Source of the DNA: Bacteroidota bacterium
GTDB lineage: Bacteria; Bacteroidota; Bacteroidia; Bacteroidales; UBA5342
DNA length: 35,105 bases
Assembly (NCBI GenBank): GCA_003249935.1
Contig: QKHT01000312.1
Span: 1-35,105, forward strand
Reading direction: 5' to 3'
Of this stretch, positions 17,988 through 33,862 are shown in pieces. The stretch's first letter is position 1. The number at the start of each line of letters is the position of its first letter. Below the pieces are notes generated by a model. The model saw only the letters and a program-made list of their open reading frames with translations, was not told the origin of the DNA and did not search any database. The translations under genes were made by a program, and so were the position numbers.

Positions 17988-17992
17988 AAATT

Positions 17993-19117: not shown

Positions 19118-19149
19118 TCAAATAAATAAACTTTCAATTTAATACTCAC

Positions 19150-20409: not shown

Positions 20410-20414
20410 ATCCC

Positions 20415-20431
20415 CAACCGGTTGTACAACC
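20415..20431. repeat. Overlapping perfect palindromes between island operons
   Basis: Two perfect palindromes overlap: CAACCGGTTG (20415-20424) and GGTTGTACAACC (20420-20431). An imperfect third, ACAACCAGTTGT, runs into 20437. Repeated GGTTG/CAACC half-sites suggest an operator or a replication/excision protein site. They lie between the first and second island operons, just before a terminator and the excisionase-like genes. Confidence 0.4.
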
Positions 20432-20462
20432 AGTTGTAGGGTATTGTTTTGTATTTTTTTGT

Positions 20463-20500
20463 ACCACGATTTCAATTGAAGTCGTGGTTTTCTTTTTATT
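20463..20500 (+). terminator. Intrinsic terminator of the first island operon
   Basis: ACCACGATTTCAA (20463-20475) pairs with TTGAAGTCGTGGT (20476-20488) as a 13-bp self-complementary stem with one G-U wobble; the innermost bases will form the loop. A T-rich tail (TTTCTTTTTATT) follows. It lies 53 bases after the 419-residue protein's stop and separates it from the excisionase-like genes. Confidence 0.8.
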
Positions 20501-20539
20501 GGCACAGAAGGAAGCCCAATCGCCGAAAACTATATCAAT

Positions 20540-20893
20540 ATGTTTTCAGAACAAATTTCTTTCAACGAATTGCCTCAGGCAATAGTTTATCTTATCCAGA
20601 AAGTTGAAAATCTGGAAGCTCTCGTAGCTAAGGGACAATCGGAAACACATGAATCGGATCGCTGGTTTAATATGAAGGAGTTTCAGGATTACCACCCCGA
20701 CCACCCGGCAGCACCTACAATTTACGCGTGGGTTGGACAAAGGCTCATTCCGAATCACAAACATGGGAAAAAACTCATGTTCCTTAAATCGGAAATTGAT
20801 GAATGGCTTAAATCCGGCAAGCGAAAAACCGCAGCTGAACTAAGAGCAGAAGCAGCAGAATTTGTAGCTAAAAAAGGGAGGATTGTAAAATGA
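20540..20893 (+). CDS. Excisionase-like HTH protein, 117 residues
   Basis: The protein has a short N-terminal coiled-coil-like helix (about 12-33) and then an HTH_17 type domain at 42-92. The pattern is a Trp-Phe-Asn-Met start, a recognition helix around AAPTIYAWVGQRLIP, and the wing and end LMFLKSEIDEWLKSG. The SEIDEWL ending is characteristic of excisionase-like DNA-binding proteins. A basic C-terminal tail follows. It is the first gene of the second island operon, and its stop overlaps the start of the next gene (ATGA at 20890). A role in excision or in control of the replication genes downstream is likely but not shown. Confidence 0.75.
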   Translation: MFSEQISFNELPQAIVYLIQKVENLEALVAKGQSETHESDRWFNMKEFQDYHPDHPAAPTIYAWVGQRLIPNHKHGKKLMFLKSEIDEWLKSGKRKTAAELRAEAAEFVAKKGRIVK

Positions 20894-21240
20894 CAGACAA
20901 TAAACAGCCCCAACGATTAGCTGACATTCTGAAAGATTATTTTCAGAACAGCAACGAGCCCTTGGCCGTTGACTTCCGCAAACATTTTGCCGGAACAGAC
21001 AACCCGCTTTTAGCTCCAAAGCCAGTCGAAGATACTTCTCTTGAAGATTGGCTCGACAATCAGGATGTAATGCAAGCATTACACGTGTCTCCCCGAACAC
21101 TTCAAACGCTACGTTCCAATGGCCTATTGCCATTTTCACGTATTGGCAACAAGCTTTACTATCGCCGTCAGGATATTATCAAAATCCTATCTGACAATTA
21201 CACAATGCGTAAAATTCAGAATTATGGGAGAGATAAATAA
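20890..21240 (+). CDS. Second excisionase-like HTH protein, 116 residues
   Basis: An HTH_17 domain occupies about residues 54-101: LDNQDVMQALHVSPRTLQTL, the turn NGLLPFSRIGNKLYY and the closing helix RRQDIIKIL. The first 50 residues are acidic and probably flexible. The gene overlaps the preceding one by 4 bases and its own end overlaps the start of the primase gene by 17 bases, showing tight translational coupling. Paired small HTH proteins directly upstream of a primase gene are a common arrangement in Bacteroidota mobilizable elements. Probable roles are excision or replication control. Confidence 0.75.
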   Translation: MTDNKQPQRLADILKDYFQNSNEPLAVDFRKHFAGTDNPLLAPKPVEDTSLEDWLDNQDVMQALHVSPRTLQTLRSNGLLPFSRIGNKLYYRRQDIIKILSDNYTMRKIQNYGRDK

Positions 21241-22213
21241 ACTGGCAATATTGTCTAAAACGCATTATGGCATTGGAATTTATGCCCATATTTTGAGTTT
21301 GTATTATCCGAATCAAACAGTCCTCTCCCTTTCGGGGAGGACTTGTTTGCCAACTAAAAACCCATTCAATGCCGATAAACCGACATTGAATATTCTCATT
21401 GAGAAAGAGAATATATTGGGCAATGCTTGGGATAAAGAGTTTGCACGACATGAGGATGCCCAAAACGCTATCCCTGCCGGTGATTCGTTCGACTTTGCCG
21501 AACTTCATTACAAACAGTCAGGAGATGAGTTGCTGCAAACGCTAAATAAAGAAATGAACCTTCATATTGGTGAGAAATTCGATTTTTACAAAAACCGAAT
21601 TTCGAATACTGAAATTCAAAATCAGAGTAATCACAACAATCAAACAAATCACAGTTCAAACATTGTGGTGAGGCATTTCTCTTTCTTCAAAGCTCCGGTT
21701 CGGAATACCATTCCTCACAAGTCAATTTCCTTGCTTGACGCCTACAATTACATTGTCGGCGATTATGCTAAACAGCGAACGGAAAAACTGAGGGGTATAA
21801 AAGACCAAAAGCAAGCCCGGCAGTACAAAGCCTCAACATTCGATTACTGTACTTTTTCAGGAATGTTTCAAACCAGGAACGATAAAGCACTCATAAGCCA
21901 TTCCGGCTTATTGTGTATTGATTTTGACCATTTGCAAAGCGTTGATCTGCTTCGCAACCAACTTTTGCGTGACGAATACTTTGACACGCAAATGCTTTTC
22001 GTTAGTCCTTCCGGCGATGGATTGAAATGGATAATCCCGATTGATACCAAACAAACAACACACAGCAACTATTTTGCTGCGGTTGCAAATTACATTCAAC
22101 AAACCTACGGTGTTGAAGTCGATAAATCAGGGCGGGACATATCCCGCGCCTGCTTTCTGCCATACGACCCAATGGCTTACATTAATCCACTTTACAAACC
22201 TTCAACTGTATAA
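21224..22213 (+). CDS. AEP-type primase, VirE N-terminal/BT4734-like, with extra N-terminal domain
   Basis: From the ATG at 21224 the protein has 329 residues. The frame is open back to 21119, but that stretch lies inside the preceding gene. Residues about 150-329 match the BT4734-like (VirE N) domain, an archaeo-eukaryotic primase fold. Motif I is LLCIDFDHL with D233 and D235. Motif II is SPSGDGLKW at 261-269, and motif III is SGRDISRACFLPYDP at 302-316. The first 150 residues form a separate domain with a conserved-looking VLSLSGRTCLPTKNPF block (33-48) and DFAELHYKQSGDELL (90-104). I have a sense of this block from other Bacteroidota element proteins but cannot name it. It presumably primes replication of the excised element together with the DUF3987 ATPase, which starts 5 bases downstream. 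Confidence 0.75.
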   Translation: MGEINKLAILSKTHYGIGIYAHILSLYYPNQTVLSLSGRTCLPTKNPFNADKPTLNILIEKENILGNAWDKEFARHEDAQNAIPAGDSFDFAELHYKQSGDELLQTLNKEMNLHIGEKFDFYKNRISNTEIQNQSNHNNQTNHSSNIVVRHFSFFKAPVRNTIPHKSISLLDAYNYIVGDYAKQRTEKLRGIKDQKQARQYKASTFDYCTFSGMFQTRNDKALISHSGLLCIDFDHLQSVDLLRNQLLRDEYFDTQMLFVSPSGDGLKWIIPIDTKQTTHSNYFAAVANYIQQTYGVEVDKSGRDISRACFLPYDPMAYINPLYKPSTV

Positions 22214-22218
22214 TCAAT

Positions 22219-24018
22219 ATGAGCAAGAAAACATTTAACCCGACAGACTGGCAACCCACAGAAACCAATAAGATTGAATCGCAAAAATCTCATAATTCAG
22301 ATGCACTTTCCCCCTCTCCACTTGGAGAGGGGTCAGGGGTGAGGTCTGATATTGAAGAAATTACAAGAAGAATTGAATCCGCCTCCATTGATATTGCCCC
22401 CAATTATGCCGATTGGCGCGACCTGGGCTTTGCCCTCGCTGACGCTTTGGGCGAAAGCGGCCGGAATTATTACCACCGTCTAAGCCGATTTTATCCGTCT
22501 TATTCACAAAGCGAAACCGACAAACAATACTCCGCTTGCCTTGCTTCGCACGGACACGGGGTTACTATCAAAACACTTTACCACCTGACTAAATCAGTTG
22601 GCATAAGTATTTCTATTCCTCAACCCTCAAAACAAACACCATTAGAAACAAAGCAAGTAAATATACCCCAAAAAGAAGAAATGGAGGATTTGGAGGATAT
22701 TCAGGAAACGAACCTTCCAACATTTCCCGATGATATTTATGCCGACCTTCCGGGCATTCTTCAAAAAGTTGTTGCAAAATCCAATTCGCCCGAAGATAGA
22801 GACCTTCTTCTACTTGGTTCGTTGGTGGTAATATCTGCATGTTTGCCTAAGATTTTCGGCATTTATGCAGAAAGAGAAGTTTATCCGAATTTATTTCTAT
22901 TCGTTACGGCTCAGGCTTCCGCTGGTAAAGGTCGTTTAACGCTTTGTCGCAAACTGGTTGACCCCATACACAGGTCATTGCGTGAGGTTTCAAAACTCGA
23001 ATTTGATGAATACCAAAGAGCTCTCACCGAGTACGCAGCAACCAAGAATAAAGCTGAAACAGAGAGACCCAAAGAACCACCTGTAAAAATGTTGGTCATT
23101 CCGGCCAACAACAGCGCAACAGGGTTATTTCAGATTTTGAATGACAACAACGGCTCAGGGCTAATGTTTGAAACCGAAGGAGATACGCTTGCACTCACAT
23201 TTAAAAGTGAACACGGAAATTATTCCGATGGTTTCCGCAAAGCGTTCCACCACGAAACAATTTCATACAACAGGCGTAAAGACAGAGAATTTGTCGAAAT
23301 CGATAATCCCCGTTTATCTGCCCTCTTATCGGGTACACCAAAACAGGTTTCGGCACTTATACCAAGTGCCGAAAACGGCTTGTTCAGTCGTTTTATTTTC
23401 TATTTTATGAATATCCGTCCGGTGTGGAACGATGTTTTTGCCAATTCCTCAGACCAAACACTCGATAGTTATTTCAATCACCTTGGAATGCAATTCTTTG
23501 ACCTTTACAGGCATTTAGAATATCAAGCCGAACCAATACGCTTTTGTTTGACTTCGGGGCAACAACAGGCATTTAATACCTATTTTGCCCAAACGCAAAA
23601 CCAGTACCTTTGTTTGTATGGAGCTGACTACCTCGCCACCGTTCGGCGGCTCGGTCTCATTACTTTCCGAATCGCGATGATACTCACAGCTCTTCGGATT
23701 ATGGATGATGGGGATATTCATTCTCCTTTGGTTTGCAGAGATAGTGATTTTAATACAGCATTATCAATGGTAAAAATACTTGTTCAACATGCTTCTATGG
23801 TATTCCAACAATTACCTTCCGAAGCTGTTACAACAGCCCCTAAAAATCAAAAGCAACAGTTTTTAGATGAACTCCCGTCGGAGTTCTGCCGAAAAGACTA
23901 TTTGGCAGTTGCTCAAAAATTAGGCATACCCGACAAGACTGCCGAGAAACACATAAAACGCTTTGCAATCAATGGATTAATTAATCACTTTGCTCACGAC
24001 AGATACAAAAAACCTTGA
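22219..24018 (+). CDS. PriCT-2 / DUF3987 replication ATPase
   Basis: The 599-residue protein has a primase C-terminal 2-like domain at about 60-128 (NYADWRDLGFALADALGE and later YHRLSRFYPSYS). A DUF3987 ATPase follows from about 170: P-loop AQASAGKGR (231-239, K237), acidic Walker B-like GLMFETEGDTL (314-324), LLSGTPKQV (369-377), and an Arg-finger candidate R391 in GLFSRFIF. A helical C-terminal part ends in a winged-helix-like tail (SEFCRKDYLAVAQKLGIPDK). With the primase upstream it looks like a split primase-helicase for element replication. Residues 30-43 (LSPSPLGEGSGVRS) come from a palindromic insert in the gene. The next step in such elements, a relaxase gene, is replaced here by an IS. 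Confidence 0.8.
   Translation: MSKKTFNPTDWQPTETNKIESQKSHNSDALSPSPLGEGSGVRSDIEEITRRIESASIDIAPNYADWRDLGFALADALGESGRNYYHRLSRFYPSYSQSETDKQYSACLASHGHGVTIKTLYHLTKSVGISISIPQPSKQTPLETKQVNIPQKEEMEDLEDIQETNLPTFPDDIYADLPGILQKVVAKSNSPEDRDLLLLGSLVVISACLPKIFGIYAEREVYPNLFLFVTAQASAGKGRLTLCRKLVDPIHRSLREVSKLEFDEYQRALTEYAATKNKAETERPKEPPVKMLVIPANNSATGLFQILNDNNGSGLMFETEGDTLALTFKSEHGNYSDGFRKAFHHETISYNRRKDREFVEIDNPRLSALLSGTPKQVSALIPSAENGLFSRFIFYFMNIRPVWNDVFANSSDQTLDSYFNHLGMQFFDLYRHLEYQAEPIRFCLTSGQQQAFNTYFAQTQNQYLCLYGADYLATVRRLGLITFRIAMILTALRIMDDGDIHSPLVCRDSDFNTALSMVKILVQHASMVFQQLPSEAVTTAPKNQKQQFLDELPSEFCRKDYLAVAQKLGIPDKTAEKHIKRFAINGLINHFAHDRYKKP
22311..22332 (+). repeat. Palindromic repeat inserted in frame in the DUF3987 gene
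   Basis: CCCCTCTCCA (22311-22320) and TGGAGAGGGG (22323-22332) form a perfect 10-bp stem, followed by TCAGGGGTGAGG. It encodes about LSPSPLGEGSGVRS at residues 30-43, in a linker before the first folded domain. I recall peptides of the form LSPxPxGEGxGVRS scattered in unrelated proteins and intergenic regions of many bacteria. This fits a dispersed palindromic repeat rather than native coding sequence. Confidence 0.6.
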
Positions 24019-24054
24019 TAACACCAATGAACATACATGTTTGCTGTTATTTTA
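24019..24054 (+). terminator. Weak terminator candidate after the DUF3987 gene
   Basis: TAACA (24019-24023) pairs with TGTTA (24045-24049) and AACAT (24030-24034) with ATGTT (24037-24041), separated by internal loops. A T-rich tail follows. The stem is interrupted and AT-rich, so the call is tentative. Confidence 0.3.
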
Positions 24055-24065
24055 TTTAATAATTC

Positions 24066-24080
24066 ACCCGTAGTGCATTT
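24066..24080 (+). repeat. Left terminal inverted repeat of the IS982 element
   Basis: ACCCGTAGTGCATTT, perfectly inverted relative to 25031-25045. Its last two bases overlap the transposase stop codon. Confidence 0.9.
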
Positions 24081-24954
24081 AGACTACAAGTGTTTTAATA
24101 TTGTTTATATTTCTATTTAAAAGTTTGTTTATCAATTGAATGACTGTCAAAGCCGTGATTTTAGATAAAATTCTGTTTTTGTATCCGTCAAAAGACTTAG
24201 CGTAGTTTCGACGAATCAAGAACTGGTCGCAAAGTTGAGAAAAAAGTGTTTCAATACGTTTTCTTGTTTTTCTAAAGATGTAAGGCTGTTTTTCATAATC
24301 GTGTTGGTTAACACGCATTGGCACTTCCAATTTTATATTGTTAGAAGTAAATAAATCCAATTGATAATCAGCACTTAAATAGCCTTTGTCTCCTATTAAA
24401 ACACATGAATAAAGATTGGTTTTTATGTTTTTCAAATAATGTATGTCATGCACAGCAGCTTGAGTTAGCTCAAAGTTTGAGAAAACCCCACTAACACTAC
24501 ATACAGCATGTAATTTGTAGCCATAAAAATGCAATTTCTGACTGGCACAATATCCTTTAGAAGGGCTTGTTAAGTAATCTTCTTTACAGATTGTTGTTCT
24601 AGAAGACCGAGATAACTTACATATTTCCAATGGCATACTGTCTACAATAAAGTGGTTTTCCGTTCCAATCAGTTTATCCGACATCGCTTTGCGGATTCGC
24701 TCTTTAATAAAAAATAATTTTCGTCTGCGACGATTATATACACTTCGTTCAATGCGTGAACTTAGTGAACTTGGCAAAACTCTAAATAATTGATATTCAG
24801 AATCTATGCCTAATGATTCTGCTGTCAGATCAAGAGCGATTAATTCGATATCGCTCAAACGTGGACAACGAATTTGATTCAGAAAGTTACTTTTTGTCTC
24901 AAATTGTTTTAATATCTCGAGAATTTTCACGTACTTTGTATTAAAGTTGTTCAT
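24079..24954 (-). CDS. IS982-family transposase
   Basis: The DDE transposase catalyses movement of the surrounding IS. From the ATG at 24954 it has 291 residues, typical of IS982. The catalytic residues are D105 in FIVDSMPLE, D189 in VLIGDKGYL and E235 in RIETLFSQL. The latter is followed by the usual C-terminal helix with RRNYAKSFDGYKNRILSKI. The frame continues to a TTG at 24978, but the ATG start is simpler. No frameshift or internal stop is visible, so the enzyme may be active. Base composition is visibly more AT-rich than the neighbouring primase and ATPase genes. Confidence 0.93.
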   Translation of the reverse strand: MNNFNTKYVKILEILKQFETKSNFLNQIRCPRLSDIELIALDLTAESLGIDSEYQLFRVLPSSLSSRIERSVYNRRRRKLFFIKERIRKAMSDKLIGTENHFIVDSMPLEICKLSRSSRTTICKEDYLTSPSKGYCASQKLHFYGYKLHAVCSVSGVFSNFELTQAAVHDIHYLKNIKTNLYSCVLIGDKGYLSADYQLDLFTSNNIKLEVPMRVNQHDYEKQPYIFRKTRKRIETLFSQLCDQFLIRRNYAKSFDGYKNRILSKITALTVIQLINKLLNRNINNIKTLVV

Positions 24955-25030
24955 AATATTTAATTGATTGGTAGTCAAACAAATATACGGATTTTTTCCA
25001 AAATGAACAACTTTTTTATTACTATTTTAC

Positions 25031-25045
25031 AAATGCACTACGGGT
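25031..25045 (-). repeat. Right terminal inverted repeat of the IS982 element
   Basis: Complement of the left repeat, perfect over 15 bases; it sets the right boundary of the IS at 25045. Confidence 0.9.
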
Positions 25046-25136
25046 ATCTAAAAATAACAATTTGTACTTTCTGTGAATGTCATTGTTTACTCCAATTCTC
25101 AATAGACGACAAAATGCAGTATTAAAAAAATAATCG

Positions 25137-25181: not shown

Positions 25182-25592
25182 ATGAAAGATACTGATGACA
25201 AACTGATAAATAGGAACATGAAACCTACCGCCATGCGTGAATTGGTTTTAGATGCATTGCTCGAACAGAATGTTGCGGTTAGCTTATCCGACTTGGAAAA
25301 GAAATTTGATAAAGCTGACAAAGTTACTTTATACCGGACACTGAAAACATTCGAAGAAAATAAACTTATTCACAGCATTGACGACGGCACAGGCTCGGTA
25401 AAGTATGCTTTGTGTGCCGAAAATTGCCAATGTAACCCACACGACCTGCATGTGCATTTCTTTTGTACCGAATGTAAACACACCTACTGTTTAAACGATA
25501 CTCCTATTCCGTCTGTCACATTACCACTTGGTTTTGAAATCAAAACCATTAATATGGTCGTAAAAGGCACATGTGCAAACTGCAAGAAATAA
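25182..25592 (+). CDS. Fur-family metal-responsive regulator (copy 1)
   Basis: The 136-residue protein has a winged-helix domain at about 14-65 (PTAMRELVLDALLEQ to LYRTLKTFEENKLI). A dimerization/metal domain follows with DDGTGSVKYALC, H87/H90/H92 and two Cys pairs, C95-x2-C98 and C131-x2-C134, the structural zinc site of the family. Extra cysteines C78, C82, C84 and C103 may add a sensing site. It is clearly a Fur/Zur/PerR relative, but the metal cannot be read from the sequence. The closest relative in the window is copy 2 (32683-33117), which shares the C-terminal VTLPxGFExKTINxVxKGxC and CKK blocks. A palindromic operator follows its stop codon. By context it controls the heavy-metal genes on its right. 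Confidence 0.88.
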   Translation: MKDTDDKLINRNMKPTAMRELVLDALLEQNVAVSLSDLEKKFDKADKVTLYRTLKTFEENKLIHSIDDGTGSVKYALCAENCQCNPHDLHVHFFCTECKHTYCLNDTPIPSVTLPLGFEIKTINMVVKGTCANCKK

Positions 25593-25595
25593 CTT

Positions 25596-25631
25596 TGCAA
25601 CTTGGTTGCATAAACTTTTATATTATCTTTG
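25596..25631 (+). promoter_or_regulatory. Operator and promoter for the His-rich protein gene
   Basis: TGCAAC-TTG-GTTGCA (25596-25610) is a perfect inverted repeat with a 3-base spacer. It is followed by a -7 box TATCTTTG at 25624-25631. A -33 TTG at 25602-25604, 19 bases upstream of that box, lies inside the repeat. A bound repressor would therefore cover the promoter. A near-identical arrangement occurs at 33099-33133. The likely binder is one or both Fur-family proteins; this is inferred, not shown. Confidence 0.65.
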
Positions 25632-25662
25632 CGGTTGTTCTAACAGTTGTAATCAGATTTCT

Positions 25663-26058
25663 ATGAACAGAATGGTGAAAAATAGTAAGTTTGTATTAGT
25701 ATTGCTGGCTGGTCTGGTAATACTGCTTCATGCTACTATCCCTCATCACCATCACCTCGATTCGAGCTGCGACCATAATTCTACAAAATCCGGTACAATT
25801 CAAAGCCATGGGGAATCTTCGACGGAAGCCGATAAGCATTGTCACGCTCTCAATACTATTGTTATACAAAAAGTCAACCCAAGATTTTTTGATAACAAAA
25901 CTGCGTCTAATTCCCTTTTACTTTTTATTACGGCCAATGAGGAAGTAAAATTCCACAACAAAGTTTCATTAACTTTCCACACAATTAAAGATATTGTTGT
26001 ATTAAAACAGTATCTTTCATCCGAACCATCCTTTAGAGGTCCTCCTGCCTTAGTTTAA
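25663..26058 (+). CDS. Exported or membrane-anchored His-rich small protein
   Basis: I chose the ATG at 25663 because it lies downstream of the promoter box and opens directly into a hydrophobic segment (about residues 9-22, KFVLVLLAGLVILL). The frame upstream to 25573 overlaps the Fur gene. The 131-residue product then has HATIPHHHHLDSSCDH (23-38) with four consecutive His, and further His/Cys near 49 and 59-61. This is a likely metal-binding site outside the cytoplasm. The family resembles small His-rich proteins found beside metal efflux genes in Bacteroidota, but I cannot name it with confidence. It is the first gene after the Fur operator and is followed by a terminator-like hairpin, so it may be expressed more than the genes after it. 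Confidence 0.7.
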   Translation: MNRMVKNSKFVLVLLAGLVILLHATIPHHHHLDSSCDHNSTKSGTIQSHGESSTEADKHCHALNTIVIQKVNPRFFDNKTASNSLLLFITANEEVKFHNKVSLTFHTIKDIVVLKQYLSSEPSFRGPPALV

Positions 26059-26079
26059 TTTCACTTCGCATTTTAACTC

Positions 26080-26102
26080 CCTGATAGAAATATCAGGTTT
26101 TT
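26080..26102 (+). terminator. Intrinsic terminator or attenuator after the His-rich protein gene
   Basis: CCTGATA (26080-26086), loop GAAA, and TATCAGG (26091-26097) form a 7-bp stem with a GNRA tetraloop, followed by five T. It lies 21 bases after the stop at 26058 and 26 bases before the next start. It would partly separate expression of the small protein from the efflux genes. Confidence 0.65.
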
Positions 26103-26128
26103 GTTCATGTTTTAAATTAGGCTCTAAG

Positions 26129-26596
26129 ATGAGTAAAAAGAAACTTACAAAGAGGGAATTACAGGAGAGGCAAATCTTTGAAGATAAAAAGAATAAACGA
26201 ACGTTGCGAATTAGTTTTGGTTTGCTTTTCGTTTTTATAATTTTATACTTAGTGTTTCATACTTTTTGGTACGACACCAAATTCGCCTACCGTCAATATG
26301 CATTTTATGGCAAGGAAGTTCCGACGGAACTTGTTTGTATGAATGGTGACAAGCTGCTTAATCATAAAAGTTTAAAACTTAGTTATAAAGGAAAAGACTA
26401 TTTCTTCTGTAACCGTGACTGCTATGAACATCTTGTTAATCACTATAAGGAAGATGCATTTATCCCGGATCCCTTATCAGGTGACACTATTTGCAAAGCT
26501 AATGCTTTGATTGGATTGAAAAATCGGGGCGAACCTGAGATTGTTTATTTCCAAAATATAGAAACATTCAAGCAGTATTATAATTCAAGCAAATAA
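26129..26596 (+). CDS. Membrane-anchored TRASH-like metal-binding protein
   Basis: The 155-residue protein has a charged N-terminus (MSKKKLTKRELQERQ), one membrane helix at about 28-46, and an outer domain with C70, C94-x3-C98 and C122. The spacing C-x23-C-x3-C with FFCNRDCYEHL resembles TRASH/YHS-type copper or heavy-metal-binding modules found in metal chaperones and sensors. The C-terminal part (DPLSGDTICKANALIGLK and YFQNIETFKQYY) is repeated, in degraded form, directly after the stop codon. It lies between a His-rich protein and the efflux genes and probably binds the exported metal at the membrane surface. Metal identity is unknown. Confidence 0.7.
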   Translation: MSKKKLTKRELQERQIFEDKKNKRTLRISFGLLFVFIILYLVFHTFWYDTKFAYRQYAFYGKEVPTELVCMNGDKLLNHKSLKLSYKGKDYFFCNRDCYEHLVNHYKEDAFIPDPLSGDTICKANALIGLKNRGEPEIVYFQNIETFKQYYNSSK

Positions 26597-26743
26597 GCCT
26601 ATTTGAAAGATGCACTGACGGGTAAAATTATACTCAAATCCAATGCAATTATTGGGTTTAAATCTAAAAATAACCCCGACGTTGTGTGTTTTGAAAACAA
26701 GCAAAACTTTATAAATTATTATTCGAATTCAAAAAACAATTAA
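26597..26743 (+). pseudogene. In-frame remnant of a second C-terminal unit of the TRASH-like protein
   Basis: Directly after the TAA at 26594-26596 the same frame stays open for 48 codons to a TAA at 26741. Its translation (YLKDALTGKIILKSNAIIGF, then FKSKNNPDVV and ENKQNFINYYSNSK) aligns with the last about 45 residues of the preceding protein (PDPLSGDTICKANALIGLK to NIETFKQYYNSSK). It has no start codon of its own. It is best explained as part of a duplicated or once longer gene cut off by the stop. The Cys of the first unit (C122) is replaced by Leu. Confidence 0.7.
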
Positions 26744-26754
26744 ACTGTATTATT

Positions 26755-27009
26755 ATGTCAACATATAAATTTAAAAATATAACAAGTGTCCTTTTTTTAA
26801 TTATGATAAGTGTAGCTGTATTTACTAGCTGCAAAGAAAAAAAAACTAACGACCATGACCATGCTCCTGGAACCCATATCGAAACTGAAGAGCACAAACA
26901 TTCCGAAGGTGATGGACATGACCACTCCAAACACGAGAAAGAAACTAAACATGTAGAAGGCGATGGACACGACCATGGTAGTGAACACACCGAAACAAAT
27001 AAAAAATAG
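26755..27009 (+). CDS. Small His-rich lipoprotein
   Basis: The 84-residue product has a lipoprotein signal with lipobox FTSC and C26 as the modified cysteine. A short mature part follows with 12 histidines among acidic and basic residues, including two GDGHDH units (52-57, 69-74). It has no folded domain, so it is probably a metal-buffering tail held on the membrane. Both signal and His-rich stretch are clearly related to the N-terminus of the adaptor protein encoded 24 bases downstream. DNA matches of about 20 bases (for example 26911-26931 and 27217-27237) show recent local duplication. It may be a metal chaperone for the efflux pump. Confidence 0.75.
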   Translation: MSTYKFKNITSVLFLIMISVAVFTSCKEKKTNDHDHAPGTHIETEEHKHSEGDGHDHSKHEKETKHVEGDGHDHGSEHTETNKK

Positions 27010-27033
27010 TTTAATAAATAAAACAGAAACAAA

Positions 27034-28314
27034 ATGATAAACAGAATTAAATCTTTTTCAACAAAGAGTACATTAAAATATAGTATCGTTTTTTTGACAA
27101 TGATATGTGTAGCTGTTTTTACTGGCTGCAAAGGAAAAACTGACGAACACGGACATGCTGCTGACACCCATGCCGAAGCTGGTGAAAAAGAGGGTGAGCA
27201 TGACCACTCGGAAGGCGATGGGCATGACCACTCCAAAGATGAAGAAGGAGTTAAACATGAAAAAGGCGAAAGTCCAGAAAATAGTGAACACGCCGATGAA
27301 ATAGCCTTCTCAGAAAAACAAGCAAAATTAGCAGGGCTTACTACCGAAACTGTTTCTCCCGGAACTTTTTATAATGCCATTAAAACAAGTGGACAAATAC
27401 AAGCACCACAGGGAAATGAAGTAGTTATTGCAGCTACCTCAAATGGAATTGTTTCATTTACAAATTCCTCAATTACTGAAGGTACTGCCGTGAGTGCAGG
27501 TCAATCAATTGTTACGATATCAGCAAAAAAGCTGTTAGAGGGTGACCCTGCCGCAAAAACTAAGATTGCTTACGAAACAGCGCTTAAAGAGTATAAACGT
27601 GCCGAAGGTCTTGCTAAAGACCAGATTATTTCTACAAAAGAGTTTGAACAAGTTAAACTTAGATACGAAACGGCTAAAACAACTTATGATGCACAAGCTT
27701 CCAATAATACGGCAAAAGGTGTTAGTGTAACCTCTCCTATCAGTGGATACCTGAAAAACAGGTTAGTATCTCAGGGTGAGTATGTTTCTGTTGGGCAAGC
27801 CATAGCTACAGTTTCACAAAACAAACGTTTGCAATTAAGAGCAGAGGTGACCGAGAGCAATTTCAAAATACTTAAAAGCATAAAAACTGCCAATTTTAAA
27901 CTCTCTTACGATAAAACTGTATATAAACTTTCCGATTTAAATGGCAAGTTGTTATCCTATGGAAAATCATCAGGTGATAATACTTTTTACATTCCGGTAA
28001 CTTTTGAATTTGACAATATTGGTGATATTATACCGGGTGCATTTGCAGAAGTTTATCTTTTATCAAGCCCTCAAAACAATGTAATCTCTATTCCTGTATC
28101 TTCAATAACGGAAGAACAAGGATTGTTTTTTGTCTACTTGCAGTTAGATGCAGAAGGATATAAAAAGCAAGAAGTTGAACTTGGAGAGAATAACGGTGAA
28201 AGAGTACATATTCTTTCAGGATTAAAAGTTGGTGATAAGGTCGTTACCAAAGGTGTGTATCAAGTAAAACTGGCTGCTACTTCATCGGTTATGCCAGAAG
28301 GTCACAATCATTAA
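27034..28314 (+). CDS. czcB: CzcB/CusB-type RND efflux periplasmic adaptor, lipoprotein with His-rich N-terminus
   Basis: The 426-residue membrane-fusion protein joins the inner-membrane RND pump to the outer-membrane channel. It begins with a lipoprotein signal (lipobox FTGC, C32), then a His/Asp/Glu-rich stretch (about 38-88, including HDHSEGDGHDHS). A barrel-sandwich/lipoyl domain follows in two halves around a helical hairpin (near 175-230; VTSPISGYLKNRLVSQGEYV after it). The C-terminal beta-barrel and membrane-proximal domains end at SGLKVGDKVVTKGVYQVKL and a final GHNH. The terminal histidines may also bind metal. It is followed by the czcA-like gene after 20 bases. Confidence 0.92.
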   Translation: MINRIKSFSTKSTLKYSIVFLTMICVAVFTGCKGKTDEHGHAADTHAEAGEKEGEHDHSEGDGHDHSKDEEGVKHEKGESPENSEHADEIAFSEKQAKLAGLTTETVSPGTFYNAIKTSGQIQAPQGNEVVIAATSNGIVSFTNSSITEGTAVSAGQSIVTISAKKLLEGDPAAKTKIAYETALKEYKRAEGLAKDQIISTKEFEQVKLRYETAKTTYDAQASNNTAKGVSVTSPISGYLKNRLVSQGEYVSVGQAIATVSQNKRLQLRAEVTESNFKILKSIKTANFKLSYDKTVYKLSDLNGKLLSYGKSSGDNTFYIPVTFEFDNIGDIIPGAFAEVYLLSSPQNNVISIPVSSITEEQGLFFVYLQLDAEGYKKQEVELGENNGERVHILSGLKVGDKVVTKGVYQVKLAATSSVMPEGHNH

Positions 28315-28334
28315 TTTTTAAAACATGAAATAAT

Positions 28335-31300
28335 ATGTTAAATAAAATAATAAGATTTTCGCTGAACAACCGAATGGTTGTTTTAGTGGCTTCCGTATTG
28401 TTAATGTTGGCGGGAACCTATACTGCCACTAATATGGAAGTAGATGTGTTCCCGGATTTAAACGCACCAACAGTAGTCGTAATGACAGAAGCTAAAGGTA
28501 TGGCTCCCGAAGAAGTTGAACGCTTAGTTACATTTCCGGTGGAAACTGCATTGAATGGAGCTACTAACGTGCGTCGTGTTCGTTCATCTTCTACTACCGG
28601 GTTTTCTGTTGTGTGGGTTGAATTTAATTGGGGAACGGATATTTATCGCAATAGGCAGATAGTTTCAGAAAAATTGTCTGTAGTGCAAGACGCATTGCCT
28701 TCAAATGTTGGCAACCCTACTTTAGGACCGCAATCATCCATAATGGGAGAAGTTATGATTGTTGGTCTTACAGCAGATTCCACTTCTTTGCAGGAATTAA
28801 GAACTTTAGCCGACTGGACTATCCGCCCACGATTATTATCCACAGGGGGAGTGGCACAGGTTACGGTGTTGGGAGGAGAGATTAAAGAATATCAGATATT
28901 ACTTAATCCTGAGAAAATGAAGCATTATGGCATTGGGATGGATGAAGTAATTGGTGTAGTTACCAAAATGAATCAAAATACAGCCGGAGGTGTTTTATAC
29001 GAATATGGAAACGAATATATCATTAGGGGAATACTTTCCACCAATAAAATTTCGGAATTGGGTAAAGCTGTCATAAAAACAACAAATGATATACCGGTAT
29101 TACTTGAAAATATTGCTGATGTGAAAATTGGCAATAAAGCTCCTAAACTGGGTATTGCTTCTAATCGTGCAAAGGCAGCTGTTTTACTAACAATAACCAA
29201 GCAGCCTTCAACCAGCACATTAGAGTTAACGGATAAATTAGACACATCGTTAGGTGAGCTTCAAAAAACATTACCTGCCGATGTAAAAATCGCTACCGAT
29301 ATTTTCCGCCAAGCCCGTTTCATTGACAATTCAATTAATAACGTGCAAAAATCTTTATACGAAGGAGGGATTTTTGTAGTAATCATATTGGTTATCTTTT
29401 TGATGAACGCCCGTACAACCGTTATTTCGCTTGTTACGATTCCGCTTGCATTAGTTTTTGCCATACTTTCCCTTAAATTCATGGGTTTGACTATCAATAC
29501 CATGAGCTTAGGCGGTATGGCTATTGCTATCGGTTCTTTGGTCGATGATGCTATTGTGGACGTTGAAAATGTATTTAAACGATTGAGAGAAAACAGGCAA
29601 AAACCACTGGAGGAGCAAAAAACAATAATGACAGTTGTTTTCGAAGCGTCAAAAGAAGTACGGATGCCTATTCTTTACTCAACGCTTATCATTATTGCCA
29701 GTTTTGTTCCTCTGTTTTTCCTTTCAGGAATGGAAGGACGTATGCTTGCTCCTCTGGGAGTAGCATTTATCATGGCATTGATTGCCTCTACGGTTGTTGC
29801 TCTTACGCTTACACCTGTATTGTGTAGCTATTTATTAGGTAAACCCCGAAAAGGAGACAAACCCGAACGTGAGCCTTATATTGTCAGGAAAGTGAAAATT
29901 GTATATGAAAAAGCCCTAAAATGGGCACTCACTCATAAAAAATGGGTACTTGGTATAACAGGTGGTGTTCTGGTGGCTGCTGTAATCATGTTTTTTACAT
30001 TAGGTAGAAGTTTTTTACCCCCATTTAATGAGGGCTCATTTACAATTAACATCAGTACAATTCCGGGAATTTCAATTGAAGAGTCGGACAAAATCGGGCG
30101 TATAGCTGAGGATATTTTACTCTCAATTCCCGAAATAAAAACTGTAGCACGAAAAACCGGACGTGCGGAATTAGACGAACATGCTTTGGGTGTGAATGTA
30201 TCGGAAATAGAAGCTCCGTTTGAACTTGACAAACGCTCAAAAGATGAAGTATTGGTTGAAATTCGTGAAAAAATGAAAGTATTACCTGGTGTAAATATCG
30301 AGATAGGACAACCTATTTCCCACCGTATCGATGCTATGCTATCAGGAACACGAGCCAATATTGCTATCAAGTTGTTTGGTACTGACTTAAACAAAATGTT
30401 TTCATTAGGAAACCAAATCAAAGCTTCTGTTGAGGGCATTGAAGGTATTGCCGACCTGAATGTAGAACAACAGATAGAACGCCCACAATTAAAAATTGAA
30501 CCAAAAAGGGAAGCAATGGCTAAATATGGTATAACGCTGCCCGAATTTGGCGAGATTGTTAATGTCATGTTGGCAGGGGAGGTTGTTTCACAGGTTTATG
30601 AAGGAAATAGATCTTTCGATCTTACCCTGAAAGTAAGTGACGACAGCAGGGCAACCGCCGACAGAATCAAAAACTTGATAGTAGATGCCAATGGACGAAT
30701 GATACCACTGGGAAATATTGCGGAAGTTACTTCATCAACAGGTCCAAATACAATCAACAGAGAAAATGTTTCCCGAAAGATTGTTATTTCTGCCAATGTG
30801 GCCGGGCGTGATTTGCGGGGCGTGGTAAATGATATTCAGAAAACGGTAAACGAAAAAATAACGTTGCCCGAAGGGTATCATATAGAGTATGGCGGTCAGT
30901 TTGAAAGTGAACAAGCAGCATCGCGAACGCTTCTTATAACTTCTATTTTCTCAATCATGGTAATATTCTTGCTGTTATTTGCTCAATTCAGAAGTGTAAC
31001 ACAATCTGCAGTTATTTTATTGAATTTACCGTTAGCACTTATTGGTGGCATATTTACCATATTTTTTACTAGCGGAATAATAAGTATACCTGCAATTATA
31101 GGTTTTATTTCTCTTTTTGGAATTGCTACGCGAAACGGTATGTTGCTCATTTCTCGTTATAACGACTTGCAAGACGAAGGTTATTCGAAATTCGACAGTG
31201 TTATGCATGGGTCTTTAGATCGTCTGAATCCAATCCTGATGACAGCATTAACTTCCGGTCTTGCGCTTATTCCGCTTGCTTTAGGCGGTGATCTTCCGGG

Positions 31301-31460
31301 TAATGAAATACAAAGCCCGATGGCGCAGGTTATTCTCGGAGGATTATTAACATCAACATTATTAAACGGTTTTATCATTCCTATTATGTATCTTCTTACA
31401 AACAAAAAAATTGTAAGAGAAGTAATGCAAGATGATGAGATAGCCGAAAAACAAGAATAA
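28335..31460 (+). CDS. czcA: CzcA/CusA-family heavy-metal RND efflux pump
   Basis: The 1041-residue inner-membrane pump exports metal ions using the proton gradient. The N-terminal helix (about 13-31), the porter domain start MEVDVFPDLNAPTVVV, TM2-6 from about 345, and a second half with TM7 near 540 and TM8-12 from about 870 are all visible. The TM4 block AIGSLVDDAIVDVENVFKRL has acidic D404, D405, D409 and E411, which carry protons in this family. The DD and third Asp differ from the Cu/Ag type DAAxxxxEN and from the classical Zn/Co/Cd type DGAxxxVEN. The substrate is therefore uncertain, with divalent cations more likely. It lies 20 bases after the adaptor and 1 base before the TolC-like gene. 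Confidence 0.93.
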   Translation: MLNKIIRFSLNNRMVVLVASVLLMLAGTYTATNMEVDVFPDLNAPTVVVMTEAKGMAPEEVERLVTFPVETALNGATNVRRVRSSSTTGFSVVWVEFNWGTDIYRNRQIVSEKLSVVQDALPSNVGNPTLGPQSSIMGEVMIVGLTADSTSLQELRTLADWTIRPRLLSTGGVAQVTVLGGEIKEYQILLNPEKMKHYGIGMDEVIGVVTKMNQNTAGGVLYEYGNEYIIRGILSTNKISELGKAVIKTTNDIPVLLENIADVKIGNKAPKLGIASNRAKAAVLLTITKQPSTSTLELTDKLDTSLGELQKTLPADVKIATDIFRQARFIDNSINNVQKSLYEGGIFVVIILVIFLMNARTTVISLVTIPLALVFAILSLKFMGLTINTMSLGGMAIAIGSLVDDAIVDVENVFKRLRENRQKPLEEQKTIMTVVFEASKEVRMPILYSTLIIIASFVPLFFLSGMEGRMLAPLGVAFIMALIASTVVALTLTPVLCSYLLGKPRKGDKPEREPYIVRKVKIVYEKALKWALTHKKWVLGITGGVLVAAVIMFFTLGRSFLPPFNEGSFTINISTIPGISIEESDKIGRIAEDILLSIPEIKTVARKTGRAELDEHALGVNVSEIEAPFELDKRSKDEVLVEIREKMKVLPGVNIEIGQPISHRIDAMLSGTRANIAIKLFGTDLNKMFSLGNQIKASVEGIEGIADLNVEQQIERPQLKIEPKREAMAKYGITLPEFGEIVNVMLAGEVVSQVYEGNRSFDLTLKVSDDSRATADRIKNLIVDANGRMIPLGNIAEVTSSTGPNTINRENVSRKIVISANVAGRDLRGVVNDIQKTVNEKITLPEGYHIEYGGQFESEQAASRTLLITSIFSIMVIFLLLFAQFRSVTQSAVILLNLPLALIGGIFTIFFTSGIISIPAIIGFISLFGIATRNGMLLISRYNDLQDEGYSKFDSVMHGSLDRLNPILMTALTSGLALIPLALGGDLPGNEIQSPMAQVILGGLLTSTLLNGFIIPIMYLLTNKKIVREVMQDDEIAEKQE

Positions 31461-31461
31461 T

Positions 31462-32640
31462 ATGAAAACAATATTAATTAGTATTATAGTATTTTTTGCA
31501 AGTATTTCGCTTTATGCCCAAAACAGTGTAGCTACTGTATTGAAAGCTGTTGAGGATAACAATACCACCTTAAAAGCACTTAAAGAGACTGCTAATGCAC
31601 AAAAGTTAGAAAACAAAACGGGAATATATCTTTCGAACCCGGAGGTTGAATTTAACTATCTTTGGGGAAATCCTTCGGCTATTGGGAATCGCACTGATTT
31701 TAATATCTCTCAAACTTTTGATATTCCTACCATAACGGGTATGAAAAGAAAAATGGCAGATGAACGTAATGGTTTAGTCGAGTGGCAATACAAAGCTGAA
31801 AGAATGAATATTCTGTTGGAAACAAAACAGTATTGTCTGGAACTAATCTATTTGAATGCTTTGAAAAAAGAGCTAGAGATAAGGTTACAACATGCCCAAA
31901 CCATTGCTTTTGGATATCAAAACCGTTTAAATAGTGGAGATGCCAATAAGTTGGAGTTTAACAAAGCGCAATTAAGTTTATCTACAATAACAGGCGAAAT
32001 GGCTCGTATTGATGTTGAACGCAATACACTGTTGTCTCAACTTAAAAGGCTGAATGGAGGCTTGGATATAAGCATGGATGACTATCGATTTGATCAGGAA
32101 CAGCTTCCGCTTAATTTTGACGATTGGTATCAACAGGCAGAACAAAAAAATCCTATTCTGGCATATGTCAAACAAGAAGTTTTAGTAAGCCAAAAACAGG
32201 TTTCATTGACCAAAGCAAAGGGCTTACCAACATTTTCGGCAGGCTATATGAGTGAAAATGTTGTTGGACAAAGATTCCAGGGACTTGCATTGGGTGTTTC
32301 AGTCCCATTGTGGGAAAACAAAAATCGTGTAAAACAGGCAAAAACAGCGGTTGTTGCAGCCCAGGCACGCGAAACGGATAGTAAGCAACAATTTTATAAC
32401 CAGCTTCAAATTCAGTACAACCGTGCTTTAGGGTTGAAAAACACAGCAGAAGCATACCGAAAATCGTTAACAATGACAAACAGCACCGAGTTGCTCAAGA
32501 AAGCACTTGATGCGGGTGAAATTTCATTGTTAAATTACATGGTGGAATTGGGTTTCTACTACAATATGGTGAACCAAACATTGGAAGCAGAACGCGATTA
32601 TCAAAAGGCACTTGCTGAACTGTCCGCTGTCGAGTTGTAA
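31462..32640 (+). CDS. TolC-family outer-membrane channel of the metal efflux system
   Basis: The 392-residue protein has a signal peptide ending near LYAQ (residue 20). It is rich in long coiled-coil helices with the internal repeat of the TolC fold. The first half includes LKETANAQKLENKTGIYLSN and the second SQKQVSLTKAKGLPTFSAGY followed by SVPLWENKNRVKQAKT, a typical outer-membrane-factor segment. It completes the tripartite pump with the two genes before it; its start is 1 base after the pump's stop. It is slightly shorter than most CzcC proteins. The gene name czcC is plausible but not proven. Confidence 0.88.
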   Translation: MKTILISIIVFFASISLYAQNSVATVLKAVEDNNTTLKALKETANAQKLENKTGIYLSNPEVEFNYLWGNPSAIGNRTDFNISQTFDIPTITGMKRKMADERNGLVEWQYKAERMNILLETKQYCLELIYLNALKKELEIRLQHAQTIAFGYQNRLNSGDANKLEFNKAQLSLSTITGEMARIDVERNTLLSQLKRLNGGLDISMDDYRFDQEQLPLNFDDWYQQAEQKNPILAYVKQEVLVSQKQVSLTKAKGLPTFSAGYMSENVVGQRFQGLALGVSVPLWENKNRVKQAKTAVVAAQARETDSKQQFYNQLQIQYNRALGLKNTAEAYRKSLTMTNSTELLKKALDAGEISLLNYMVELGFYYNMVNQTLEAERDYQKALAELSAVEL

Positions 32641-32682
32641 AACGTGTTAATTCTGAAAAAAATCAAGATTCACTTTCGTAAC

Positions 32683-33117
32683 ATGATAAATGAAAAACTT
32701 GAAAAAAGACTTGAAAAAAATGGTATCAAACCAACAGCCAATAGGCTGTTGGTTCTTGATGCCATTTCTAATAAGACAGAGATTTTTAGTTTGTTAGATT
32801 TGGAAGCCGAATTGGAGACCATTGATAAGTCAACCCTATTTAGGACTTTGACACTATTTCTGAACCATTTAATAGTACATACGGTTGATGATGGCTCTGG
32901 GTCATTGAAATATTCGGTATGCGTTGAAGAGTGTGATTGCAGCACTGCATGGCAACATGTCCATTTTTATTGCTCCGTATGTAATCGTGCGTATTGTTTA
33001 AGAGATATTTCGATACCTAAAGTTACGTTACCTGTTGGATTTGAAACAAAAACAATAAATTATGTTATTAAGGGAGTGTGCAACCACTGTAAGAAGTTTG
33101 CAAACAAGTTGCATTAA
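32683..33117 (+). CDS. Fur-family metal-responsive regulator (copy 2)
   Basis: From the ATG at 32683 it has 144 residues (an upstream start at 32644 would add 13 residues unlike the family). The winged-helix domain is at about 15-66 and the sensor domain follows, with DDGSGSLKYSVC, H92/H94 and Cys pairs C97-x2-C100 and C133-x2-C136; C84, C86 and C105 are further candidates. It is a diverged paralogue of copy 1, sharing the VTLPVGFETKTIN block and the Cys positions. The recognition helix region differs (STLFRTLTLF against VTLYRTLKTF). It closes the efflux operon, 42 bases after the TolC-like gene. The last six codons (FANKLH) are made by DNA that also forms the operator at 33099-33113. Confidence 0.88.
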   Translation: MINEKLEKRLEKNGIKPTANRLLVLDAISNKTEIFSLLDLEAELETIDKSTLFRTLTLFLNHLIVHTVDDGSGSLKYSVCVEECDCSTAWQHVHFYCSVCNRAYCLRDISIPKVTLPVGFETKTINYVIKGVCNHCKKFANKLH

Positions 33118-33133
33118 ACATACATTACTTTTG
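33099..33133 (+). promoter_or_regulatory. Operator and promoter inside the end of the second Fur gene
   Basis: TGCAAA-CAA-GTTGCA (33099-33113) is an inverted repeat, imperfect by one base. Read on the other strand, it differs by one base from the repeat at 25596-25610. It lies within the last codons of the Fur gene. A -7 box TACTTTTG follows at 33126-33133, 12 bases after the repeat, against 13 at the first site. It should drive the barrel-protein gene at 33158. Confidence 0.6.
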
Positions 33134-33157: not shown

Positions 33158-33862
33158 ATGAAAAAAAGTAGAAACTTATTTAAAGTATGTGTTGTAATTG
33201 CCGGAATGTTTTTTATTACCGGCAAGGGTTACGCCCAGGAGTGTGGTCCTAATTGTCCGGCATGTTCGGGCGGTAGCAGTGGCGGTATTATTGCTAAAAA
33301 CAATTTGGTAGTATCGGTTTTAGGAATGCCTACATCCGATGACGAATACACTGTTGCAAATGTTCGTTATGGTGTATTCAAATGGATGGATGTGGGAGTA
33401 GGTTACGCCTTCAAGGCTAACAAACCAATATGGAGTTTGCGCATTAAGGCATTAGCTGAAAAAGAAGACAAATGGTATCCGGGCGTAATTGTAGGTACGG
33501 GAAGTGTGCGTACAGGTGGAAACGACCAATCAGTATATGGGATGCTGACAAAAACTTTTGAGTTTAACGAGAAAGTTGCATTACAAGGTTATGTGGGCGC
33601 TGCATCTGTATTTAAGGATTTAGACCAACCATTTTTCCTTTCGGGCTTATCTGCTATCTTCTTTGAAAAATTCACTGCTTTTGTTTCTTATGACGGTAGA
33701 AACTTTCATGAAGGATTATCATGGACTGCCACAGATAATCTTACGCTTACAGCTCTCATGATAGAAACCCTTTATCCGGCATTATCGGTGAGTTATAGAT
33801 TCGATTTAGGTAAAAAAATGAAAAAGATAAATAGCCAAAAGGCATTTCTTTCTGCGAACTGA
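33158..33862 (+). CDS. Outer-membrane barrel protein with Cys-rich mature N-terminus
   Basis: The 234-residue product has a signal peptide ending near GYAQ (residue 27). The mature chain opens with a Cys cluster, C29-x3-C33-x2-C36 (ECGPNCPACSGGS). The remainder is alternating strands (YGVFKWMDVGVGYAF, VGTGSVRTGG, ALQGYVGAASVF, LSVSYRFDLG) as in an 8-10 strand outer-membrane barrel. I cannot name the family. It begins just after the Fur-type operator and lies between the efflux operon and a metal ATPase. It may therefore bind metal at the periplasmic face or let it leave the cell. Function is inferred only from context. Confidence 0.7.
   Translation: MKKSRNLFKVCVVIAGMFFITGKGYAQECGPNCPACSGGSSGGIIAKNNLVVSVLGMPTSDDEYTVANVRYGVFKWMDVGVGYAFKANKPIWSLRIKALAEKEDKWYPGVIVGTGSVRTGGNDQSVYGMLTKTFEFNEKVALQGYVGAASVFKDLDQPFFLSGLSAIFFEKFTAFVSYDGRNFHEGLSWTATDNLTLTALMIETLYPALSVSYRFDLGKKMKKINSQKAFLSAN

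Follow-up and report, generated by a model that had tools for sequence, protein, structure and literature searches.

A Fur subfamily predicted to regulate metal efflux in Bacteroidota, with a common operator set at a fixed distance from the promoter box

The window analysed here, a stretch of 35,105 nucleotides comprising contig QKHT01000312.1 of a Bacteroidales genome (GCA_003249935.1), encodes two proteins of the Fur family, Fur1 and Fur2, together with genes for metal efflux. Each fur gene ends at a 15-bp palindrome, hereafter the operator, that is followed 12–13 nt later by a TAnnTTTG (−7) promoter box. From a module in which protein subfamily, operator, spacing and efflux linkage recur together, Fur1 and Fur2 very probably represent a Bacteroidota subfamily of Fur dedicated to the regulation of efflux. 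That the control is by metal-loaded activation is, in our judgement, evenly poised.

Results

The two palindromes, the TAnnTTTG boxes that follow them at 13 and 12 nt, and the two fur genes described in an earlier note on this DNA lie where it had placed them (Table 1). Site 2 had been called an inverted copy of site 1 with one change, and the reverse complement of TGCAAACAAGTTGCA does differ by a single base, while the genes beyond the boxes, described as encoding exported proteins, are open reading frames (ORFs) with hydrophobic N-termini starting at 25663 and 33158. The box sequences read TATCTTTG, 13 nt downstream of site 1, and TACTTTTG, 12 nt downstream of site 2. Searched with up to two mismatches in the window alone, the motif of the earlier note gave 16 matches, and 6 of 100 shuffles gave as many, which is not significant; as this loose motif did no better than chance, the evidence has to come from the genome and from relatives.

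The genome itself (4.27 Mb in 326 contigs) encodes five proteins matching PF01475, four of which (Fur1, Fur2 and one each on contigs C132 and C154) form one subgroup, the fifth (C159:1997-2461) being a classic Fur. All four subgroup genes share one layout: TGCAAN5TTGCA at or over the stop codon, then TAnnTTTG, a small exported ORF and efflux genes. Palindrome and box together occur exactly four times in the genome, always at a Fur stop (reversed control 0), and a looser form (TGCA-N7-TGCA, 11–14 nt to the box) likewise returned exactly these four sites with no control match. The genome scan called for by the earlier note therefore found operator plus box only beside the four Fur genes and before metal-efflux genes, so that the motif with its promoter box is not randomly placed. 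The bare palindrome TGCAAN5TTGCA is present in 40 copies (reversed control 0), none of them on the contig of the classic Fur: 22 in 41-bp tandem arrays, 4 at Fur stops and 14 elsewhere, of which 13 were inspected, 12 overlapping an open frame of at least 80 amino acids (aa) and one, on C257, being intergenic. The arrays (C139:8598-8853, C179:60785-61046 and C212:76969-77270) are built of a ~41 bp unit in 7–8 copies each, with a TGCAAAACTTTTGCA-like palindrome per copy; linked neither to Fur nor to a −7 box, their 22 palindromes were set aside as unrelated repeats.

The same arrangement recurred among relatives found by a peptide-based scan of GTDB genomes. In 72 of the best 80 of 408 relatives, TGCA-N7-TGCA lies within −60 to +250 of the stop codon, starting 0–6 nt past it in 66 of the 72, and TAnnTTTG follows 64 of these 72 palindromes, 37 of them at 12 nt and 27 at 13 nt. 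One locus (L107) was counted as lacking an operator in these tallies owing to a frame break; its operator actually lies 4 nt past the stop. The relatives' consensus reads AACTT-TGCAACYCRGTTGCA-TNAACTTTT with TATCTTTG as the box, and the 15-bp operator consensus, TGCAAYYNRRTTGCA, is a 7-1-7 palindrome. A palindrome so close behind a stop codon, with a 6-bp stem that could form in RNA and a T-rich tract several nucleotides further on, might also serve as an attenuator or weak terminator behind fur rather than as a protein site. However, the identically spaced operator also stands before efflux genes that are not preceded by fur, and the palindrome overlaps the coding end of fur in Fur2 and others and precedes the promoter box; we regard an RNA hairpin as highly improbable.

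A phylum-wide search returned at least 150 hits, four of them in the window's own genome, and 82 of falling similarity were taken with their flanks, in 80 stretches. With 81 Furs from the best-80 loci and the four from the own genome, these made a set of 167 Fur ORFs, from which the classic Fur was excluded and in which near-copies were kept. Within −40 to +60 of the stop, the palindrome was present in 82 of 98 Furs with C78, C82, C84 and C103 (eight-Cys Furs), in 18 of 51 with C78, C82 and C103 (seven-Cys Furs), in none of the 8 with C78 and C103 and no C82, and in none of the 9 others, which have no C78. Dinucleotide shuffles of the eight-Cys regions contained it in a mean of 0.12 and at most 1 of 97, one eight-Cys Fur with <25 nt past its stop being excluded. 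TAnnTTTG stood at 12 nt in 39 and at 13 nt in 29 of 80 sites (68 of 80), compared with 0.15 and 0.1, respectively, in shuffles. Kinship and near-copies inflate such counts, and two further tests were therefore made.

Starting from the motif, the pattern TGCAMN5TTGCA-N12,13-TAnnTTTG was run on 395 Bacteroidota genomes and found at 46 places in 35 of them (reversed control 1). Thirty-nine of the 46 sites are neighbours of a subfamily Fur, of P1B-ATPase or CusA/CzcA genes, or of the small leader ORF of such genes; seven are not efflux-linked (G257, G363:C19, G272, G287, G164, G337 and G203:C72), five of these lying inside open frames. Every genome with an efflux-type site had a Fur hit at E ≤ 1e-3 (29/29 vs 168/395 overall) and nearly all had one at E ≤ 1e-30 (27/29 vs 63/395; all hand counts). 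Motif and Fur subgroup thus go together across Bacteroidota genomes, the co-occurrence that had been proposed as a check. A site used by some other regulator, with Fur as a mere neighbour, would agree with one genome (G230) that has an operator–ATPase site but whose Fur hit is weak (E 8.9e-7). Such a regulator is very unlikely given the Fur hits in all 29 genomes, the presence of the same box before the own genes of more distant Furs, and the 7-1-7 geometry, which is one of the forms described for Zur boxes (PMC6103462).

Among plasmids, 18 records held a relative of Fur1, and eight were fetched. Seven of the eight loci have one palindrome each, with efflux genes next to it or after other ORFs. 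In five it lies at the Fur stop, followed directly or one ORF later by P-ATPase or cation diffusion facilitator (CDF) genes; in the other two it lies directly before a P-ATPase gene (Bacteroides finegoldii) or ~0.6 kb before CusA (Bernardetia). The Pontibacter locus has no palindrome, and no other copies occurred in the 65,933 bases of these loci on the one strand scanned. TAnnTTTG stands at 12–13 nt in four of the seven. A near-identity search of plasmids with window positions 25182-28400 gave no match. Closely related Fur–operator modules were also seen on contigs of metagenome-assembled genomes assigned to Synergistaceae, Clostridia and Ignavibacteriaceae (L065, L072 and L094), which may reflect horizontal transfer or binning error.

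Gene order falls into two types: fur-[operator]-small exported ORF-(YHS)-RND (type A, RND denoting resistance-nodulation-division) and RND-fur-[operator]-(small ORF)-P-ATPase (type B); the window has type A followed by type B. Leader ORFs related to the small exported protein at 25663..26058 lie 3′ of the operator in many relatives. Eleven type-B stretches include the start of the operon, and in seven of them an operator also stands at the promoter of the RND operon, with the box at 12–13 nt in six; four have no operator there. Five of the seven (G107, G277, G002, G049 and G064) carry a palindrome at the fur stop as well, whereas G103 and G343 have none by the pattern used. A single fur gene flanked by two operators is therefore a recurrent layout, with the caveat that several of those genomes carry further Fur hits.

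The earlier note had taken the common site to suggest cross-regulation or heterodimers, which would be unusual in the Fur family; the site is the ordinary operator of the subfamily, which makes cross-regulation likely here and at the same time not peculiar to Fur1 and Fur2. Both proteins keep the recognition-helix residues T49, R52 and T53, and position 51, Y in Fur1 and F in Fur2, shows the same change elsewhere in the subfamily, so that cross-action would likely be the expected state. A half-site had also been noted over the Fur1 promoter: it does exist, yet among 98 eight-Cys Furs just 5, Fur1 included, have TGCAAC/GTTGCA within 110 nt upstream, and half-site autoregulation at the Fur1 promoter was rejected.

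Fur1 and Fur2 are 49% identical and occupy separate places in a quick maximum-likelihood tree of 164 of the 167 proteins (three identical or short rows left out), which does not support a recent fur duplication within the island. All 97 rows with a palindrome at the stop fall into one group of 124 rows (SH-aLRT 99), 26 of whose members have a palindrome neither at the stop nor upstream; among the 40 rows outside, none has it at the stop and seven have it upstream of their own gene. The palindrome-place label needs two changes on this tree, not one, because the long-branch L231, with an upstream site, falls inside the group. Fur1 groups with proteins of other Bacteroidales that are 95–96% identical to it, and Fur2 with L156, L158, L164 and L176 (SH-aLRT 97, at a place where long branches meet), three of which adjoin a P-ATPase. 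The pair thus looks assembled, not freshly duplicated.

An AlphaFold2 model of Fur1 (pLDDT 82.4, pTM 0.71) has the Fur fold, a winged helix plus a dimerisation domain: among the 50 PDB matches listed, nearly all are Fur, PerR, Zur or Mur, the top one being Zur 4mtd (TMq 0.68). The loop carrying C82 and C84 is weakly predicted (residues 81–90 average pLDDT 60), and ligands were not placed from the model. The structural zinc pairs C95/C98 and C131/C134, each a CxxC motif, are invariant in the 41 rows of alignment A3; L054 and L061, from the wider set, are without one of these. Aligned with the classic Fur of the same genome (alignment A1), whose His/Glu/Asp positions we take to be the regulatory metal ligands of Fur/PerR, its H, E, D, E and H correspond to A32, A76, V91, C103 and T122 in the subfamily. 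Five of seven regulatory positions are thus replaced, H90 and H92 are retained, and C78, C82 and C84 are gained. A mycobacterial Zur (2o03) has a Cys aligned with C78; the subfamily also carries C82, C84 and C103. By alignment, the canonical metal ligands are largely replaced and cysteines gained, from which we infer a thiol-rich site for Zn/Cd/Pb-type ions.

Table 1. Annotated genes, operators and promoter boxes of the efflux island (window positions).
Feature	Position	Strand	Evidence or remark
Fur1, 136 aa, eight-Cys Fur subfamily	25182..25592	+	PF01475 38.0 bits, cut-off 23.1; C78, C82, C84, C103 signature
Operator 1, TGCAACTTGGTTGCA	25596..25610	.	3 nt past Fur1 stop codon (25592); same position in relatives
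TAnnTTTG (−7) box of operator 1	25624..25631	+	13 nt downstream of operator 1
Small exported protein, first gene past operator 1	25663..26058	+	Weak DUF6769 match, below Pfam cut-off
YHS-like protein with hydrophobic stretch	26129..26596	+	Pfam match below cut-off
84-aa His-rich ORF, similar to CzcB N-terminus	26755..27009	+	
CzcB-type periplasmic adaptor, His-rich N-terminus	27034..28314	+	TIGR01730 155 bits, cut-off 94.9
CzcA/CusA-type RND metal efflux pump	28335..31460	+	TIGR00914 810 bits, cut-off 701
CzcC-type outer-membrane efflux protein	31462..32640	+	PF02321 105 bits, cut-off 22
Fur2, 144 aa, same subfamily as Fur1	32683..33117	+	PF01475 30.2 bits, cut-off 23.1; tree
Operator 2, TGCAAACAAGTTGCA	33099..33113	.	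Within last codons of Fur2 (stop ends 33117)
TAnnTTTG (−7) box of operator 2	33126..33133	+	12 nt downstream of operator 2
234-aa exported protein	33158..33862	+	No family match
Zn/Cd/Pb-type P1B ATPase, ended by contig end	33979..35105	+	PF00122 and PF00403

Between the two operators lies an RND efflux operon, czcB, czcA and czcC, led by the small exported and YHS-like proteins. Fur2 starts only 42 nt downstream of czcC, so that fur2 is probably part of the efflux operon. The top NCBIfam matches of the P1B ATPase are zinc/cadmium ATPase models, with scores below their cut-offs, as expected since the protein is truncated by the contig end. Within the same stretch, 26600-26743 is a degenerate in-frame repeat of the C-terminus of the YHS protein, past its stop codon, and the ORF at 26755-27009 appears to be a partial tandem duplication of the CzcB N-terminus turned free small protein. 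Upstream, a segment of ~0.92 kb (24041-25060) that includes an IS982 transposase gene separates a 599-aa gene from Fur1; it is missing at this place from the related contig L044, so that it probably inserted recently, ~120–140 bp upstream of Fur1. Genes that match those of the window in length (599, 364 and 117 aa) precede the Fur of L044. Further upstream, 17082-24018 holds genes named from reading the sequence as excisionase-like, tyrosine-recombinase-like and primase/VapE-like, and the efflux island seems to be carried by an integrative element.

Discussion

We propose that Fur1 and Fur2 both recognise the 15-bp Fur-type box 12–13 nt upstream of TAnnTTTG and that, the box being shared, each could act on both operators. 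Operator 1 would control a transcript of the leader, YHS, czcBAC and fur2 genes, and operator 2 the exported protein and the P-type ATPase. Excess Zn/Cd-like ions would bind the cysteine-rebuilt site (C78, C82, C84 and C103 with H90 and H92), and the loaded dimer at the −33 position would help RNA polymerase to start efflux transcription. Protein–DNA binding, the extents of the transcripts, the identity of the metal and the direction of control are here inferred from the DNA sequence. In its full form, with a dimer at −33 locked to TAnnTTTG that recruits polymerase through a new four-cysteine soft-metal site, performs a MerR/CzcR-like job and, in this window, shares operators and may heterodimerise, the proposal is tentative, and we would put it at somewhat below an even chance.

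Placement relative to the promoter carries the argument on the direction of control. If TAnnTTTG is taken as ~−11 to −4, as we assume, the operator is centred near −32, a place that would suit an activator standing in for the −33 contact. Activation is favoured because of the 12–13 nt lock described above, which holds at both kinds of efflux promoter. A set of 15 loci of more distant Furs (one of them, L190, a seven-Cys Fur), often beside a MerC-like gene, carries the same box in variable placement: 1–6 nt downstream of the forward −7 box in five, the ordinary place of a repressor, and in L190 12 nt upstream of fur's own −7 box, with none found in a few. An efflux operator locked upstream, as against repressor-place boxes in distant Furs, suggests a different action. 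Within the wider collection, L219–L222, L225, L226, L229, L231 and L232 are distant Furs near a small membrane protein that we take to be MerC-like, with a TGCAAC-type palindrome (some with an end base changed) before fur in all but L226; these may be the Bacteroidota branch of Zur. There are precedents for metal-loaded Zur activating efflux (PMC6103462, PMC5472717).

Several observations weigh against this reading. No site was present at the stop of 16 of 98 eight-Cys and 33 of 51 seven-Cys Furs; some have it at another place in the locus, and for others none was found. In 6 of the 15 distant-Fur loci the divergent strand carries a −7 box with the palindrome 15–18 nt upstream of it, so that what sets efflux promoters apart is the 12–13 nt lock and not upstream placement as such. 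A site near −32 would also fit blocking of RNA polymerase, and Zur boxes overlap the −35 in ordinary repression (PMC6103462). A −33 TTG is missing from 67 of 75 distinct efflux promoters, and equally from 31 of 39 upstream boxes of the Fur genes themselves, so that its absence does not discriminate and was rejected as proof of activation; the 75 promoters were chosen by the 12–13 nt pattern and hence give no evidence for spacing.

The opposite allostery has to be considered with comparable seriousness, namely that metal-free Fur1 and Fur2, sitting on the operator over −33, block transcription until excess metal at the cysteine site releases them, contrary to classical Fur. With its centre near −32, the operator overlaps the place of the polymerase, and in Corynebacterium glutamicum two efflux genes are repressed by Zur whose sensory sites are unfilled, through a site that overlaps the −35 (PMC6103462). 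Replacement of the canonical ligands makes an altered allostery plausible, and the operator before the fur-containing operon in 7 of 11 type-B loci would then give negative autoregulation. However, a blocking repressor has no need of a 12–13 nt lock, the box of distant relatives stands before or behind −7 boxes with no constant spacing, and DNA binding by the apo-protein, which derepression needs, is unusual in the Fur family. Derepression we hold to be a little less probable than an even call.

Whichever direction applies, the module bears on a phylum that is prominent in guts, in soils and at metal-polluted sites and whose control of metal efflux is poorly described in the literature searched. 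Regulator, 15-bp operator and fixed-spacing box together offer a ready means of predicting metal-efflux genes, as well as a clean test case of whether a Fur protein can be a metal-inducible activator at −33; if the cysteine site does sense soft metals, it would be a second metal-sensing solution inside a classic family. Full-text literature, seen as titles and abstract starts, gave no description of such an operator or of control of Bacteroidota efflux by a Fur subfamily, although subscription papers lay mostly outside it and absence is unproven; on the promoter spacing, the papers listed were all unrelated. The public records seen label these proteins just 'transcriptional repressor' or 'Fur family transcriptional regulator'.

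Among known systems, the task is that of the MerR-type activators of Zn, Cu and Pb efflux, which switch on P1B-ATPase and RND genes from a promoter-proximal palindrome at fixed spacing, but whose fold is unrelated to Fur and whose sites lie inside the −35/−10 spacer. Classic Fur/PerR, represented in this genome by C159:1997-2461, shares the family, the structural cysteines at C95/C98/C131/C134 and HxH; its His/Glu/Asp regulatory ligand set is replaced at five of seven positions in the subfamily. Zur of C. glutamicum likewise exerts Fur-family control of efflux (zra, zrf; PMC6103462), but through a 10-1-10 direct repeat instead of a 7-1-7 palindrome, and it is a global Zur, not a regulator dedicated to efflux. 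The recognised neighbours of the subfamily are efflux genes, no search having been aimed at zinc-uptake genes as Zur-type targets. Further parallels are Zur of Streptomyces coelicolor (zitB) and of Xanthomonas campestris (a CDF exporter), Fur-family regulators that raise an exporter at high zinc from, respectively, a box upstream of the −35 and a GC-rich site; each is a single global Zur that also represses uptake genes (PMC6103462, PMC5472717). Unlike those Zurs, the subfamily described here is a separate group adjoining RND and P1B efflux genes, with its box near −32, a locked spacing to the promoter box and extra cysteines.

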